NCBI GenBank assembly: GCA_003141615.1 | Contig: PLMV01000116.1 | Coordinates: forward strand, 1-32,855 | Direction of reading: 5' to 3' | Length of the DNA: 32,855 nt | Source: Syntrophaceae bacterium | GTDB lineage: Bacteria; Desulfobacterota; Syntrophia; Syntrophales; Smithellaceae | Part shown: piece by piece, positions 4,601 through 28,069 of the stretch | Position numbering within the stretch: the first letter of the stretch is position 1 | How the letters are laid out: every line of letters begins with the position of its first letter | Program-made: the position numbers and the translations under genes | The notes under the pieces: model-generated | Databases searched by the model: none | Seen by the model: the letters and a program-made list of their open reading frames with translations, nothing else | Told to the model about the DNA's origin: nothing

Positions 4601-6312
4601 TAGTGCCCGACGCCTGCCCTGAGCACCTTCTTGTCCACTTTCCCCACGGCTGTCAGCGGCATGGCGTCCGTAATCTCCATAACTTTGGGAACCTTATAAG
4701 GTGTCAGGTTTTCCCGACAATGGTCGAGCAGTTCTTTTTTAATGGATTCAAGATCTTTTTCCATCGCCGGGGCAGTCAGTTGGATCACTGCCTTAACAAT
4801 CTGGCTGTCCGGCCTCTTGGGATCCGGCATCCCGATAATGGCGCAAAGCTGGACCGCCGCATGCTGACTCAAGACATCTTCAACCTCCCGGGAAAACACC
4901 TTGTACCCCCCCACGATGAGCATATCCTTGGAGCGGTCAGCGATGAAGACATATCCGTCCTCATCCATCCTGACAACATCGCCGGTATAGAGCCACGTTT
5001 CCTTCTGGTACTCCCTCAAGGTGTTTGCCGTTTCTTCGGGCTTTCCGTGATACCCCTTCATTACCTGAGGACCGTGAACGATCAGTTCCCCGACTTCACC
5101 CACCGGCACCTCTACCGTTCCTGTTTCAACATCGACCACTTTAATCCGCGTACTCTGCAAGGGCAGGCCGACAGAACCAATCTTCTTTTTCCCTTTGCAG
5201 GGATTCATCGTGATGACGGGGCTCGCTTCGGTCATGCCGAGGATTTCCACCACTTTCCCTGCACCGACGATCGCTTCCAGGGCCGTGATGGCCTCTTTCG
5301 AAAACGGCGCTGCACCGGAAATGCATATCTCACACGACGAGAAATCAATTTTCGCAAAGGCCGGATTATCCATCAGCATCTGGTAGAGGGACGGGACATG
5401 CAGCATGATGAAGGGGCGGTATTGGGAAATTTCCCGGCAGACATGGTCGGTGTTTCTGGGATCGGGAATCAGGCACTGGGTATAAGACATGGCCATGGTC
5501 GTCAGCCCCAGATAGAGACCCGCTTGATGAAAGAATGGAAATCCCGAACAGGCAACCCCTCCGCCCACCTTGAGGTCGAACCATTGTGTCGCCTGAAGGA
5601 TATTGGCAACAAGATTGCGGTGCGTCAATACCGCCCCCTTGGGCAGGCCTGTCGTACCCCCCGTATACTGGATAAGACAGGTATCCTGGGGATCGATACG
5701 CACCTTCGGCCTGGACGCCCCATAGTTCCGGATAACATCCATGAAGGGGACAATCTCTTTGCCGGCGATCGGCTCAACCTTCCCCACGGGTACTTTCTTC
5801 AGTAATTTCCCCAGGAATCTCTTGTGCAGCGGCAGAAAGTCGATAATATTTGTGACGATGAAAATTTTCAGCGACGGAATATCGTTACGAATTTTTTGCA
5901 CGCGATTTTCGAAAATGGCATCGAGCGTTACCAGGCACTTTACGCTCGTGTCGTTGATCTGATTGGCCATTTCCTTGGGCGTCAAGAGCGGCGAAACCCC
6001 GCTGGCCACGCAACCTGCGCGCAGAATACCGGCCAGGGCAATCAGATACTGCGGGGTATTGGGAAGATTCACACCAACCACGTCACCCGGGACACAACCC
6101 CGGCTGGCAAGGTATCCGGCAAAACTACCGGAGAACCTGTCCAGGTCTCTGTAGCTACAGGTGCTGCCGAGAAAATGAAACGCGTCCCTATCCGGATCGT
6201 GGTTGATGGCTCTTTCCAGCAAATCCACATACGTTTCATCGGGAATCGTTATCTCATGCTCTACCCAGGGATCATACGATTGCAACCACGGTTTGGTATC
6301 GTAAACTGTCAC
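4600..6312 (-). CDS. AMP-dependent acyl-CoA synthetase (ANL superfamily ligase)
   Basis: An acid:CoA ligase of 570 residues from the chosen start. The ATP-binding loop YTGGTTGLPKG lies near residues 216-226, the hinge/A8 region LYTGDVVRMDEDGYV and the GGYKVFSREVE motif follow, and the catalytic lysine is in PLTAVGKVDKK near the C-terminus. I start at the GTG at 6312 because it has a strong AGGAGGTG five bases upstream; the reading frame stays open for 38 more codons but has no Shine-Dalgarno there. It activates a carboxylic acid to its CoA thioester with ATP, the expected first step of the pathway in this operon. The acid is unknown; a branched medium-chain acid is inferred from the neighbours. 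Confidence 0.9.
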   Translation of the reverse strand: MTVYDTKPWLQSYDPWVEHEITIPDETYVDLLERAINHDPDRDAFHFLGSTCSYRDLDRFSGSFAGYLASRGCVPGDVVGVNLPNTPQYLIALAGILRAGCVASGVSPLLTPKEMANQINDTSVKCLVTLDAIFENRVQKIRNDIPSLKIFIVTNIIDFLPLHKRFLGKLLKKVPVGKVEPIAGKEIVPFMDVIRNYGASRPKVRIDPQDTCLIQYTGGTTGLPKGAVLTHRNLVANILQATQWFDLKVGGGVACSGFPFFHQAGLYLGLTTMAMSYTQCLIPDPRNTDHVCREISQYRPFIMLHVPSLYQMLMDNPAFAKIDFSSCEICISGAAPFSKEAITALEAIVGAGKVVEILGMTEASPVITMNPCKGKKKIGSVGLPLQSTRIKVVDVETGTVEVPVGEVGELIVHGPQVMKGYHGKPEETANTLREYQKETWLYTGDVVRMDEDGYVFIADRSKDMLIVGGYKVFSREVEDVLSQHAAVQLCAIIGMPDPKRPDSQIVKAVIQLTAPAMEKDLESIKKELLDHCRENLTPYKVPKVMEITDAMPLTAVGKVDKKVLRAGVGH

Positions 6313-13147: not shown

Positions 13148-13402
13148 ATGCTCAGCCGCGCCGACGCAATATTAATTATTATTGATATTCAGTGCAATCT
13201 TGCCCAAGCCATGTACGAAAAGGAAAATCTTTTTTCCAACAACGTAAAGCTGATTCAGGGTGTTAATGAAAATCGCGATATCGGCATAGCAGCAATAAAA
13301 AGTACCGAGGTTCATCTCACCAGTACAGAAATGGTTCTTTTTGAATTGCTGCGCACCGCCGCCGATCCCAAAGCAAAAAAACTTTTCAAGATTGTGAAAT
13401 AA
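13148..13402 (+). CDS. Internally deleted isochorismatase-family paralogue
   Basis: An 84-residue frame that matches both ends of the 179-residue isochorismatase-family protein at 896-1435. Residues 1-38 (D13 retained) and the final ~46 residues (STEMVLFELLRTAADPK) align closely, but about 95 residues between IQG and ENR are missing. The deletion is in frame and removes the catalytic Lys and Cys, so the hydrolase cannot be active. A strong Shine-Dalgarno (AAGGAGG) and clean start and stop remain, so it may still be translated. It is either a decaying duplicate or a small derived peptide. The nucleotide sequence has diverged from the parent at many positions, so the duplication is not recent. 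Confidence 0.7.
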   Translation: MLSRADAILIIIDIQCNLAQAMYEKENLFSNNVKLIQGVNENRDIGIAAIKSTEVHLTSTEMVLFELLRTAADPKAKKLFKIVK

Positions 13403-13459
13403 AGAAGGCTCTGGAAGTCTTCCGAAAATACTTTTCACTAAAAGCCTGCTTATGAACAT

Positions 13460-13774
13460 CTAAGAATAGTGTATTGCCAACCAAATCGTCTGATTGTTCG
13501 GGTCGGTCCAGGTAACTTTGTGTCTGGTGTGTGCAGGAATATTTAAGTAATCACCCTTTATGAGATTAACTTCATCTCCGCTTTCGAAGAGAATTGATCC
13601 GGAGCCTTCAAGAACAATGACCCACTCGTTTTCTTTCTGATCATACCAACCATTTTCCGGAGATGTATGGCCCTGCGAAACAATTCTTTCGATCTTTATA
13701 TTTTTATGACGAAGCAATTCTTCGAACGATTCATGCTCTAATCCATCCGGCAATGACGAAAATATATTCCCCAT
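13460..13774 (-). CDS. Cupin domain protein
   Basis: A 104-residue single-domain cupin. The first conserved block is SQGHTSPENGWYDQKENEW (33-51) leading into VIVLEGSGS; the second is GDYLNIPAHTRHKVTW (74-90), with H82 and H85. The WYDQ...EWV pattern is that of a widespread small-cupin subfamily of unknown substrate in which the canonical HxH pair is altered. AGGAG lies upstream of the ATG. It is followed within 60 bp by the end of the isochorismatase-like frame on the opposite strand. Function unknown; metal binding and a small-ligand role are family-level expectations. Confidence 0.85.
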   Translation of the reverse strand: MGNIFSSLPDGLEHESFEELLRHKNIKIERIVSQGHTSPENGWYDQKENEWVIVLEGSGSILFESGDEVNLIKGDYLNIPAHTRHKVTWTDPNNQTIWLAIHYS

Positions 13775-13802
13775 AGGTTGATGCTCCTATTTCTTTGGAA
13801 TT

Positions 13803-13863
13803 GACATAACGCTCGCCTTCAGCGTCACGATGTATTCGTGTCCGCTGCAAGGCGTTGTTCGGC
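13803..13863 (-). other. attC-like recombination site (integron cassette type)
   Basis: Directly 3' of the AttH/CrtC-like gene is an imperfect palindrome. On the plus strand CGCCTT-CAGCG-T-CACG pairs with CGTG-TC-CGCTG-C-AAGGCG around a 7-base loop, leaving unpaired bulge bases on one side. The outer ends carry AAC and GTT, and on the gene strand the site ends in GCGTTATGTC, close to the GTTRRRY core. Size (61 bp), bulges and position after a stop codon all match integron attC sites. The core is not perfect and no integrase is in the window. Confidence 0.55.
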
Positions 13864-13876
13864 GACCATGGTCTTC

Positions 13877-14875
13877 TCACACAACAATCGCCACACCGTG
13901 GTCTGCTCTGTCCGTGAGAATCTCGAATGCTGCGCGATGCATCGTCTTCAATGTCCGCGGCGGTTGTCCCCGTCGCTCCACGGTGATCTCCGCGCTGGCC
14001 AACTTGGTGTTGAGACATGTCTTCCGGCCGCCCGGTGGATTCTGATAGCTCAGCCCGACAAAGACAGTGGCGGGAGCATGAATGCGTCCATAGATGTGGG
14101 CCTGAGGGCTTCGTGCATCAATTGTCCAGGTGAAAAAATCGAAGTTCCCAGACGCACGCAAGGCCTGCAGGAGACCGTTAATCGCAGTCTCCTGTCCCTC
14201 GTCGCGCAATACGACGAATGTCAGGCGTGGACTCCAGACAGGCCCGAGCTTGACCTGAGCGGTGCAGCACTCCAGGAAGGCATCCGGGGCATTATCGAAG
14301 CCCGCGACTTGGCCCCATGCGTAATGATCGGTGTGCCGACTGCCCCAGTTGTGATTTTGGCTGCCCCTCCAGCCGTCGATCGGAATCTCGCGACCGTCCA
14401 CTGTGAGTGTGCCGGTGTACTCGGCATTTGGGGTCCCGACCAGGGACTTTGCCTTCGGGAACCCGCGCTCGTACAATGATTCGGGTAGCAGCAACAATGG
14501 TGGCTCATGGCCCGTGTAGCGCAACGACCATTGGAAAATATGAGATGGCGATACTGCGCGGCCGTGCAAGGCTCCATCTGTCAGCGTCGCGCCGTTAATG
14601 CGCACGTCTAGCTGCGTCCGCGAGAAGTTGCACTGCGATATCGGAACCGTCTCCTTCACCGCAGTGATGAGGTTCGTCTCACCATCGAAATAGATCGCCC
14701 ATAGCTCGCCGCACGCTTTGTCGGGCTGTCCTCGAGGACTCAAGGCGGTGTAGCGGATCCAGAAGGCCAAGGGACGCGTGGGGTGATTGGCCCGCTGAAA
14801 GTAACTTTCGTAGAACCCGCTTGGATCTTCCGGCTTAAAGCGAGAGTTGTTCCAGTCAGTGTGCGTCTGTGTCAC
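13877..14875 (-). CDS. AttH/CrtC-like (lipocalin-fold) hypothetical protein
   Basis: A 332-residue protein that looks like the AttH/CrtC group (carotenoid 1,2-hydratase, tocopherol cyclase-like double lipocalin folds). The most telling stretch is residues 170-190, with SQNHNWGSR and then DHYAWGQV, matching the NxxWG/YAWG pattern of those proteins. No signal peptide is seen. The start is a GTG (14875) with only a weak GGGGGA upstream. Its base composition is visibly richer in G+C than the genes on either side, and an attC-like site follows its stop, so I infer arrival as an integron cassette. Enzymatic function is unknown; the fold call is moderate. Confidence 0.65.
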   Translation of the reverse strand: MTQTHTDWNNSRFKPEDPSGFYESYFQRANHPTRPLAFWIRYTALSPRGQPDKACGELWAIYFDGETNLITAVKETVPISQCNFSRTQLDVRINGATLTDGALHGRAVSPSHIFQWSLRYTGHEPPLLLLPESLYERGFPKAKSLVGTPNAEYTGTLTVDGREIPIDGWRGSQNHNWGSRHTDHYAWGQVAGFDNAPDAFLECCTAQVKLGPVWSPRLTFVVLRDEGQETAINGLLQALRASGNFDFFTWTIDARSPQAHIYGRIHAPATVFVGLSYQNPPGGRKTCLNTKLASAEITVERRGQPPRTLKTMHRAAFEILTDRADHGVAIVV

Positions 14876-14943
14876 TCTAACTCATCCCCCTTCTACGAAT
14901 TGCGGTCCGTAACCCCGTTCGCCTGATTACAAGACACTCTGCA

Positions 14944-15480
14944 TTACTTCATCTTTGATTTTAACTTGATCTTTTTACCTGCAACCATGAAGTTGCCGCT
15001 TCCCAGATGATGCATCGTCCGCGGGTTTTTCACTTTGGGATCAATCCAGGCCTTCACTACTTCAAGCACAAAAAAACAATACTTGTTTAACATACTCGTG
15101 TCAACCACCCGGCACTCAAGATTTGCATAGCATTCCTCAATGAGAGGCGCTCCGACTTTTGAAGCAGGCTTTGGCGTGAGACCAAATTTCTTGAACTTGT
15201 CTACATTTGCACCAGACGTATTGCCACAGCCCACGACCTTTTCAGCTATCTCCACTGTGGGAATGTTAATCACGCATTCTTTTGTTGCCTTCAACAGGCC
15301 AAAGGAATAGTTGCGATTGCTGATGACGCAACCCACCAGCGGCGGCTCAAACTCCATCATCGTGTGCCATGACATAGTCATGATGTTTGGATTCCCATCC
15401 CGGGAGGTTGTGACCATGACAACCGGCCCCGGCTCAAGTAAGCCATAGACCTTAGATAGAGGAAAGGATTTCTTTGCCAT
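14944..15480 (-). CDS. Flavin reductase family protein (FMN-binding split barrel)
   Basis: A 178-residue split-barrel flavoprotein of the flavin-reductase-like/DIM6-NTAB group. The pattern GPVVMVTTSRDGNPNIMTMSWH (18-39) followed by EPPLVGCVISNRNYSFGLL (45-63) and ECVINIP is characteristic. Such proteins bind FMN and act as NAD(P)H:flavin reductases or flavoredoxin-type electron carriers; in anaerobes the flavoredoxin-like role is common. AAGGAGG stands ahead of the ATG. Neighbours are the AttH-like cassette gene and an intergenic repeat, so context adds nothing to its role. Confidence 0.88.
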   Translation of the reverse strand: MAKKSFPLSKVYGLLEPGPVVMVTTSRDGNPNIMTMSWHTMMEFEPPLVGCVISNRNYSFGLLKATKECVINIPTVEIAEKVVGCGNTSGANVDKFKKFGLTPKPASKVGAPLIEECYANLECRVVDTSMLNKYCFFVLEVVKAWIDPKVKNPRTMHHLGSGNFMVAGKKIKLKSKMK

Positions 15481-15660: not shown

Positions 15661-16530
15661 TCAACCGTGAATTCGCAGAAGATCATACTCTATGTCTTTT
15701 CTGTTTAAATCGTCTCGATTCTTTATCTTCAAGTTGAAGAGAATAAAGTCTTCCAGTCCTGAAACGTTGCAAGGCTGACCATTCTCACCAGGAACTGCTA
15801 ACTGAAATAGATAGGGCACACCATCTTTGTAACTATTTCTGAATGTAGGGAAATATGAATTCCCTGTTATTTGGCAGCGCTTTCCAAATATCAGCATTAC
15901 CATATGCTTATGGTGCACATCTGTTAATGATGTTTTCTTCCGTTCAGTTTCTACCATTTCATAATAACTGGCCGCAGTTTTTCGTTCGATGTTTGGGTAA
16001 CAGAAGAAGACGTATTCATCATTACTATTAACAATAACGCTTGCACAAATATTACCTTCTTCGTCCCTCAACTTCCCGTATGACCAGTGAAGAAGTAGTT
16101 CATGAACTTTTCTTGCGTAATCTGGATCAGACATAAGCCAACCAACCAGGGGTATCTGATACTGATTTTTTGGATCTTTAGCATATCCAAAAAACGCACC
16201 CAACCATTTATCAGGTTCAATCTCGAAATCTGGCAGTGAGTGTACATACAGGCTATTGTAACAAAAAGCGCTTTTTTCGAAAAACGTGGTTAGTAAATAG
16301 ATACCTAGACCAAAAAGGAAACTAACGAATACTGACTCGAAGGAGAATAAAGCAGATATGAGGCCTATCATGGTTAGCGCTATCTTCACAGCGCGTATGA
16401 ACGGCTTGAATCTTTCGTGTAGGACGACTTGGATAAACCAACCTTTCTTATGAATGTTCACATCAAAGTGAAGGCGGTTTAACCAAAGTATCAGCCACTG
16501 CTTAAGCGTTTTTTCTTTTTTAGCAATCAT
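15661..16530 (-). CDS. Two-helix membrane protein of unknown function
   Basis: A 289-residue protein I do not recognise. The N-terminal ~45 residues are basic and aromatic, two hydrophobic segments at about 48-64 and 66-84 form a probable transmembrane hairpin, and the remaining ~200 residues look soluble with no familiar motif. There is no signal peptide. It lies 24 bp downstream of the GIY-YIG-like gene on the same strand, so the two are probably co-transcribed. The start ATG has only a weak CAGG upstream, consistent with translational coupling. A membrane-anchored partner or effector of a nuclease module is a possibility, not a demonstrated role. Confidence 0.7.
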   Translation of the reverse strand: MIAKKEKTLKQWLILWLNRLHFDVNIHKKGWFIQVVLHERFKPFIRAVKIALTMIGLISALFSFESVFVSFLFGLGIYLLTTFFEKSAFCYNSLYVHSLPDFEIEPDKWLGAFFGYAKDPKNQYQIPLVGWLMSDPDYARKVHELLLHWSYGKLRDEEGNICASVIVNSNDEYVFFCYPNIERKTAASYYEMVETERKKTSLTDVHHKHMVMLIFGKRCQITGNSYFPTFRNSYKDGVPYLFQLAVPGENGQPCNVSGLEDFILFNLKIKNRDDLNRKDIEYDLLRIHG

Positions 16531-16554
16531 AGTCTGGTAGACCTGACAGTAGCG

Positions 16555-17088
16555 TTACCGACGGCTTAAAGTTGTCCGCTGGATTAGCTGGTTAGCTTCA
16601 AGCTCGCTCATTACTTCGTTTACGATACCATTAAGTTTGGCCTCGTTTTCCAGTGTTCTGAATGTCTCCCTTTTCTGTTTTATTTCTTTTGATACCCATC
16701 CTGCGCCAGAAAATATATTTAACAACTCACACCCAACCATACCCTGCAATTTCTTTTGAATCTTTTCGTTTAGCCACCTCTCCATTTCATTTATTCGATC
16801 TATACTGATACGTCTTTTACTTTCATCTTCTGAATAATTATCAAAATGATCAAATATATATGTGTACACTCTTTCTTCATGGTCAGAAATTTTATTCCTA
16901 ACTTGGCTATGAATCTTGTTATACGAAAAGTGGTTGCCACACCTAGATATTAGAGGATTACACCCTTCTCTATTATCACCAGTCTTGCCGACATAAAGCT
17001 TGATATCATTTTTGCCTGAAGCAATAACAGCATATACAGAGAATTTTCTCTTAAGACTTTCTGGATTTAATTTAAATTTGTATGCCAT
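16555..17088 (-). CDS. GIY-YIG-like nuclease domain protein
   Basis: A 177-residue protein whose first ~110 residues carry the order of GIY-YIG nuclease motifs: VYAV (18-21) for GIY, LYVGKTG (31-37) for YIG, R49 and H53 in ISRCGNHFSY for the catalytic Arg/His region, and E101 or E103 in INEMERW as the metal-binding Glu candidate. The C-terminal ~65 residues are helical and charged, with no known domain. It is the first gene of a two-gene unit with the membrane protein. Homology is inferred from motifs only; the domain is degenerate enough that a search is needed. The product would be a small DNA- or RNA-cleaving enzyme. Confidence 0.6.
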   Translation of the reverse strand: MAYKFKLNPESLKRKFSVYAVIASGKNDIKLYVGKTGDNREGCNPLISRCGNHFSYNKIHSQVRNKISDHEERVYTYIFDHFDNYSEDESKRRISIDRINEMERWLNEKIQKKLQGMVGCELLNIFSGAGWVSKEIKQKRETFRTLENEAKLNGIVNEVMSELEANQLIQRTTLSRR

Positions 17089-17220
17089 GTCTCATAAGCT
17101 AACAATGTTTATATGTATCCGGCCGGGTATTTCACCTTCTGCTTTTCTGAAAACTTTATAAGGATTGTGATGATAAAAACATGATTCGCCGTTGTTTGTC
17201 AATATACCTTGTAAAACGAA

Positions 17221-17249: not shown

Positions 17250-17284
17250 GTTACGGCACAAGGGCAGGCTTATGAGGAGGCACT

Positions 17285-17422
17285 ATGGCCACTGAAAACA
17301 CCGTCAATCAAAATCGTTTCTGGGGAGAAACGATTGCTTTTCTTGCCCTGTTTCTCGACACTGTCCGCCTGAACGCAAAAAACGCTCTTGATTTATTTTT
17401 ATTGCAGCTTATATTAATTTAA
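17285..17422 (+). pseudogene. Truncated NCS2-type permease copy (N-terminal fragment)
   Basis: A 45-codon frame beginning MATENTVNQNRFWGETIAFL, plainly homologous to the first ~27 residues of the permease at 18631 (MNAENTISQHSFWGETTAFL). After the FLDTV segment the similarity stops and the frame runs through unrelated AT-rich sequence to a TAA. Promoter, leader and Shine-Dalgarno (GAGGAGG) are kept, so a short peptide could still be made. It is the remains of a tandem duplicate whose body was deleted. From its end to the DUF3175 gene nothing else is recognisable. Confidence 0.75.
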
Positions 17423-27397: not shown

Positions 27398-27535
27398 TAA
27401 ATAATTTCTTTCTTCCTCATTTTCCAAATTTTTAATTTTATGCTAGATTACAAACAGTAATCGTTAAACAATTCTTTTTCATTAAGAACGTCATACCGCA
27501 TTTTTGCGGTGTTTATGTTATTATAGAAAATATAT

Positions 27536-28069
27536 ATGAACTTTGTTAACAGACGAACAGAAATGAAAAATATTTCGGAACTTGAGCGGATTGTTGCGAA
27601 GTTTGATGAACAGTTGAAACCTGTCGCAACGAGGTCTTTTGATTTCAACGATCCTGAATGGATAACTAAACTCTATAAGACTCCAGATCCACTTGATGAG
27701 ACCGGAACACGATCGGAGATGGAAACATTACTCATAGAAGTCACCAATCATTACGCCAATTGCGATTCCGAAACGAGGCGAGTAATCCGCTCTATTTTTC
27801 AAAAATATGACTCTGTTGCTTGGGCCGCAACTTTCTCTAAGGCTCCAACCACTTCGGAAGGCATTCGCCGGCAATTATTACTTTTCTCAATCTTAGATCA
27901 AGGAAAAGACACACGGGATGCAATCCTGTGGCTACAAGATATTTCTACTAGGGCGAAATCGGCTGGTATACAAGTTAAGCCCATACTTGAAGAAGTTGCT
28001 GGCTTTTCCAGTGAAATGAATAAGTACGGAATGGGCTCAACTAAGAGTTTACTTCTGAATGCCTGCTAA
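27536..28069 (+). CDS. Hypothetical helical protein
   Basis: A 177-residue soluble, mostly alpha-helical protein that I do not recognise. It contains no membrane segment or signal peptide, and a conspicuous region of helix-turn-helix-like repeats around FSKAPTTSEGIRRQLLLFSI could be HEAT-like, but that is only an impression. The start is uncertain: ATG at 27536 and ATG at 27563 (MKNISELERIVAKF) both lack a good Shine-Dalgarno. A 33-bp hairpin (GGACTCGC/GCGAGTCC, 28084-28116) and a dispersed repeat follow immediately. Function unknown; small AT-rich genes between such repeats are often recently acquired. Confidence 0.65.
   Translation: MNFVNRRTEMKNISELERIVAKFDEQLKPVATRSFDFNDPEWITKLYKTPDPLDETGTRSEMETLLIEVTNHYANCDSETRRVIRSIFQKYDSVAWAATFSKAPTTSEGIRRQLLLFSILDQGKDTRDAILWLQDISTRAKSAGIQVKPILEEVAGFSSEMNKYGMGSTKSLLLNAC

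Follow-up and report, generated by a model that had tools for sequence, protein, structure and literature searches.

A probable off-target integron cassette with an AttH-fold gene, and dispersed attI units, in a Smithellaceae genus

Integrons are described as one platform, i.e., an integrase, an attI site, and an array. Cassettes enter by recombination of attI with the folded bottom strand of attC (PMC8352920). The origins listed for attCs without an integrase gene (intI) are off-target insertion, intI loss, and rearrangement, and off-target cassette insertion is proposed as one origin of CALIN (PMC8618304). IntegronFinder 2.0 reports CALIN from two attCs upward by default (PMC9024848). Insertions of single cassettes at a non-classical site, attG, were obtained experimentally in E. 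coli (Loot et al. 2024 as cited in PMC12444791).

The window analysed here, i.e., the whole stretch of 32,855 nucleotides, lies on contig C87 of a metagenome-assembled genome (MAG), G000, of 3,539,553 bases in 218 contigs (89.7% complete, 5.9% contamination); the genomes compared were also MAGs. A flavin reductase gene (14944-15480; PF01613, E 8.6e-35), a 332-aa gene with a GTG start (13877-14875), a 60-bp site (13863-13804), and a cupin gene (13460-13774; PF07883, E 1.5e-7) follow one another on the minus strand. The sequence-only reading had taken 13803-14943 for a single captured cassette. The capture was supported, i.e., the site scored high with a covariance model and the gene was not core, and the extent was corrected. 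The cassette proper measures 1071 bp, from the T after G14881 to G13810 (13810-14880, minus strand), and consists of one AttH-fold gene and its attC. We consider it about 70% probable that this genuine cassette, with a gene of probable betaproteobacterial origin, was inserted by IntI acting in trans, through attC recombination at a GTT-containing site, between the flavin reductase and cupin genes and outside any main array.

The cassette belongs to a known sort. The attG insertions described in PMC12444791 resemble it in the G|TT, as a single cassette with an intact attC is found in a chromosome, at a distance from attI and intI. Those insertions were experimental in E. coli, whereas the window holds a natural case, probably of the off-target type, with one edge confirmed by comparison, common to two species and decaying in one. 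CALIN (PMC9024848) share the attC without nearby intI, but only one intact attC is present here, i.e., a single match in the window at E<=10 with default filters, and the intI-less loci of the genus retain an attI unit. The sedentary chromosomal integron has the same attC architecture, and sister species have attI with intI; in contrast, no intI was found in the MAG, and its attCs and attIs lie in many places, not in one array. The attI of the locus itself is a probable relic 2.2 kb off, with the flavin reductase gene between.

The site at 13804-13863 (minus strand; its bottom strand is the plus strand of the window) is a genuine attC. It scored 42.3 bits in cmsearch with a covariance model, R1, at E 4.3e-8 in the window alone and 4.6e-6 against the whole MAG. 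R1 was built from 20 aligned attCs with 15 pairs, the site of the window excluded, and the training attCs came from contigs of relatives carrying an integron integrase and, for two of them, from plasmid R388. Twenty-one candidates were picked from a larger listing, and 18 entered the model, including L122:8840-8900, L120:786-860, and L124 with corrected strand or coordinates; L121 (99 nt), L130:2216-2303 (88 nt), and L122:9455-9510 (opposite orientation) were excluded. In single-strand DNA folding, the bottom strand formed a hairpin of -17.3 kcal/mol (z -4.9), which none of 200 shuffles equalled. The AAC/GTT ends and the unpaired bases on one side of the stem had been read correctly; the latter are two extrahelical bases on the R''/L'' arm, placed as in the attCs of relatives. 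The position just behind the gene was also right, with the stop at 13877 and the attC from 13863 on the same strand. An Rfam search returned no attC-like family and two chance matches only, and a DNA search of plasmids gave no attC-like match.

The right edge of the cassette is confirmed to the base, at the G|TT of R'. In G010, a genome of the same genus without the cassette gene, the cupin side aligns to 13298-13810 of the window at 89.5% identity and stops at G13810, and its homology restarts exactly at G|TTATGTC; thus TTATGTC is host flank. Comparative support covers this right edge, and the left edge is placed by motif, i.e., G|TTAGAG at 14881-14875, since no relative could be aligned over the 60 bp that separate G14881 from the stop of the flavin reductase gene. 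The proximity of the GTG start to GTTAGAG, remarked earlier, is in fact an overlap. An AAGGGGG in the flank (14886-14892, minus strand), 10 nt before the GTG, may serve the cassette gene as a ribosome-binding site, as read from its position. The GC content of the gene (58.7%) had been called higher than that of its surroundings, which held for the flavin reductase (46.6%) and cupin (40.6%) genes next to it and not for the more distant carboxylase genes (52-59%).

Those carboxylase genes form an 11.7-kb block enclosed by two copies of an isochorismatase-like gene in direct orientation, i.e., a complete one (896-1435) and a partial, internally deleted one (13148-13407). In G010 and G008, the gene runs on without interruption by the block.

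The slot between the two neighbours is variable in the genus, as other genes occupy it in relatives. The cupin gene had a near-full-length match in five of 16 same-genus genomes and a partial one in G004, and it was linked to the flavin reductase gene in G008, G009, G004, and G010, where the two flank other genes. G008, G009, and G004 lack the cassette gene and have a C_GCAxxG_C_C redox gene between flavin reductase and cupin; this gene was assigned by Pfam in G008 and identified in the other two by sequence similarity. In G010, the place before the cupin gene is taken by a CmpB-like membrane gene. A clean empty site was not found in the relatives compared, so replacement or deletion must also have occurred.

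The most serious alternative is that the cassette is the remainder of a longer array, i.e., an eroded integron or CALIN that started at an attI about 2.2 kb upstream and lost the rest by deletion. A probable relic of an attI 3' end, without integrase, was found in the same orientation at 17101-17123 (minus strand), where the sequence from 17123 to 17101 reads GGATACATATAAACATTG|TTAGC. It scored 4.3 bits (E 3.9) alone, and therefore it is credible only through synteny with G011, in which an attI (L011 1791-1888; 30.7 bits, E 2.3e-8) occupies the same place between the transporter and the next genes and is split by a short palindromic insert. A similar ACATTG|TT was found at the corresponding place of G010, and no attI was seen at the G008 locus. 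The first genes behind the attI differ among the three species, i.e., a 177-aa gene without Pfam family in the window (16555-17088, minus strand), a gene that looks SIR2-like by eye without Pfam hit in G010, and two SET genes in G011. Weak attC relics follow in each of them: a possible decayed attC after the 177-aa gene (16477-16597, minus strand; 9.7 bits, E 0.13 in 1.9 kb, filters off), one at L011 3334-3398 (14.1 bits), and one at L099 602-649 of G010 (6.7 bits). These observations fit an array, but the intervening flavin reductase gene is chromosomal and linked to the cupin gene in G008, G009, and G004, with no attC found between them. An eroded array is therefore unlikely as the source of the cassette, and off-target insertion is the best fit, given that the genes on either side are chromosomal and that relatives have them linked.

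Two further observations concern the window. Around an insert of approximately 1.2 kb with a DUF3175 gene, part of the 5' end of the transporter gene occurs twice (17278-17365; 18624 onward). A second weak attI-like match, AT-rich and possibly due to chance, was located at 27429-27546 (plus strand; 13.3 bits, E 0.006).

A homologue of the cassette gene was found in five of 40 genomes searched, its own included, and in one of the 16 same-genus genomes, G011 (91%). A vertically inherited core gene, which the earlier reading had named as a possible refutation, was rejected on this distribution; the gene is rare in the genus, and its flanks enclose other genes in four relatives. In a tree of 52 proteins (L047 and L059 omitted as too short, L065 not included), the copies of G000 and G011 form a group with those of Curvibacter and Rhizobacter (99/95), which in turn joins the Rhodocyclales proteins (100/99). 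Homologues from within the family or order itself (G017, G026, and Syntrophaceae UBA2251) fall in another clade. Transfer from a betaproteobacterium-like source would be the simplest reading of the tree. An attC match was absent from every other homologue locus examined, so the gene family is normally chromosomal, which speaks for a captured gene here. The plasmid protein search returned only distant Streptomyces homologues (24-25%), and the protein search of viral contigs gave no match.

It could also be considered that an ordinary gene, inherited vertically or transferred by homologous recombination, came to stand beside an unrelated attC relic. Close homologues, those of Curvibacter and Rhizobacter among them, are indeed chromosomal and without attC. 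Against this, the homology of G010 breaks at the cut base of the attC, and, as in other cassettes of the genus, 13 bp separate the end of the gene from the attC; this reading is very improbable. A transcription terminator or a chance palindrome, for which the place directly behind a stop codon would be suitable, was rejected and deserves next to no credence, because the E-value with R1 is 4.3e-8 here and 58 other loci, which total 488,637 bases and include all 51 genome-contig homologue loci, were without a match at E<=10, the extrahelical bases and R/L boxes are in register with those of array attCs, and the cut base coincides with the G010 homology break.

The second copy, on contig L011 of the LacPavin MAG G011, shares the gene, the attC region, and the cupin gene with the window at 90%, and the transporter further upstream is shared also. 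Its attC scored 12.6 bits with R1 and no longer shows an attC-type fold. Between G000 and G011, DNA identity was 91.3% in the gene and 81.5% in the attC, and substitutions in the gene were distributed as 23/13/53 over the codon positions, with 48 synonymous and 32 non-synonymous codons. This pattern suggests constraint on the gene and not on the recombination site. The flavin reductase gene is absent in front of the G011 copy, and the start of the gene, GGAGGTATTAA-ATGGCAAAGA, is the start region of the flavin reductase of the window. A deletion has apparently fused the cassette gene to this region and given it a host start.

Insertion of the cassette by IntI in trans would then have proceeded as follows. 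An IntI located elsewhere would have acted on the bottom strand of the attC; we infer this agent, since no IntI was found in the MAG. The event may have preceded the separation of the G000, G010, and G011 lineages. The cassette was presumably kept because its gene was useful and the flank supplied translation signals. The attC would later have decayed in G011, where the gene was joined to the flavin reductase start region, and the cassette would have been lost or exchanged in G010, leaving an edge at the exact cut base. It is reasonable to regard the cassette as undergoing domestication. The cupin side of G000 is 92.6% identical to G010 and 88.6% to G011, and if the locus followed descent, the cassette would have been present in the common ancestor of the three genomes. 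This order stays conditional because the transporter does not resolve it (85.9 vs 86.0%). Homologous recombination, or the transfer of a larger piece, could alternatively have moved the cassette and the cupin gene together. The probable attI unit about 2.2 kb upstream would be older, and one of many intI-less units in the genus.

The cassette protein was predicted with high confidence by AlphaFold2, from an alignment of 38 homologues (mean pLDDT 93.9, pTM 0.92), as a double lipocalin-like AttH fold. Its top Foldseek match was 2ich, AttH of Nitrosomonas (E 5.4e-12), followed by kievitone hydratase, pericyclases, and 25-phosphosteroid lyase; a profile search of PDB sequences reached the last of these only at E 0.19. 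No Pfam family was found at E<=0.001. The earlier AttH-like assignment thus stood by fold and not by Pfam. Weak matches were DUF7065 (E 0.067) and the Rv3169 family (23 bits vs a cut-off of 150), and Tocopherol_cycl matched weakly in 29 of the 38 homologues (best 4.2e-6). The protein alignment, A3, left out L016, L021, L024-L026, L041, L042, L047, L051-L054, L056, and L059. AttH, kievitone hydratase, and 25-phosphosteroid lyase have the same fold as predicted here, but identity is 15% or less. The product is likely a hydratase, lyase, or cyclase of lipids or isoprenoids, judging from the modelled fold.

The attCs of G000 are dispersed over the genome. R1 gave at least 33 matches at E<=0.01 on at least 20 contigs, 14 of which carry one attC each among the matches listed, and most of the attCs inspected closely follow an ORF. 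The description of the cassette as lone is therefore valid for the window and not for the genome, nor does it take account of the probable attI relic upstream. All of G000-G015 had attC matches at E<=0.01 (at least 2 to at least 56 each), and G016 had six at E<=0.05. The background is low, as the nine order-level genomes gave 0 to 14 matches among those listed, with none in G028 and one each in G026 and G031. The near-complete G008 (10 contigs, 98% completeness) has 10 attCs (E<=0.05) in seven places on three contigs, and no IntI passing E 1e-60. IntI was above the cut-off in 59 of 155 genomes of the class. In G000, 89.7% complete, there was no TIGR02249 match over the cut-off (best 82.4 bits vs 265), and sub-cut-off matches of this kind occur in all 14 control genomes. 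The cassette had been placed far from its integrase, which holds for this MAG.

Around one lone-attC locus of G000, C117, a genus-wide search for an empty site with the flanks matched repeats only and led to attI. The repeated element also sits just behind intI and ends with ATATAAACAATG|TT immediately before the first cassette, as expected of attI. The conserved unit of approximately 190 bp consists of an inverted repeat, an AT-rich stretch, which may hold a promoter, and the attI. On intI contigs, i.e., L115-L118 and others, the cassettes and intI are co-directional, the unit lies 64-66 bp behind the IntI match, and the shared block begins right behind the intI stop at the inverted repeat GGGATATTAT...ATAATATCCC. 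Most intI-less copies begin at the same point after unrelated flanks.

An attI model, R2 (119 columns), was built from six intI-linked copies, leaving out the partial or weak L114 and L077. Over 17 genomes of the genus, 29 of its matches reached 40 bits or more, and 28 were distinct (one was split). Five lie 64-66 bp downstream of a co-directional IntI match, and the contigs of 24 (23 distinct) are without any IntI match at E<=1e-60. In the family, R2 matched at E<=1e-5 in 24 of 44 genomes; no attI was found in viral contigs searched with the attI pattern. Remnants of intI upstream of the intI-less units were found in none of 12 loci by tblastn (best E 4.9), and all six intI loci tested alike were matched. 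There was no shared upstream ORF; the flanks were heterogeneous, several with approximately 100 bp of common non-coding sequence. Twenty intI-less loci were examined for a downstream attC, three of which end too soon to test, and a same-strand attC (E<=0.1) lay within approximately 1.6 kb downstream in 14 of the other 17. Among loci fetched by attI similarity only, the proportion was 10 of 13; the remainder were fetched through their attC and are not independent.

These dispersed intI-less attI units differ from the described integrons, and they seem new, as no description was found in the open-access literature searched. Both intI loss and mobility of the unit would fit as their origin. Tentatively, and with slightly less than even confidence, we propose that the integron of this genus, and partly of the family, is distributed, i.e., one integrase would serve several scattered docking units of approximately 190 bp without intI, each with one or few cassettes, in addition to cassettes at non-attI sites, and the block may itself move. 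The cassette of the window has its context in a genus where attCs and intI-less attI units are dispersed, in near-complete assemblies also. If the units work in trans, a chromosome could offer a single integrase several sites for docking cassettes, many of which would escape searches that require intI or a minimum of two attCs.

Some minor features of these repeats were observed. A short palindromic element of the CTTCAGAAACAAAGTG..CTGAAG type was seen at L011 1867-1941 and in L242, L251, and L255, where it apparently breaks up the attI units. At L223 6313-6523 of G003, an attC stands immediately before, not after, the attI unit. A further repeat of approximately 177 bp (L174:7733-7909, query 5234-5410) occurs in many copies in G000 and G010 and in few in other members of the genus.
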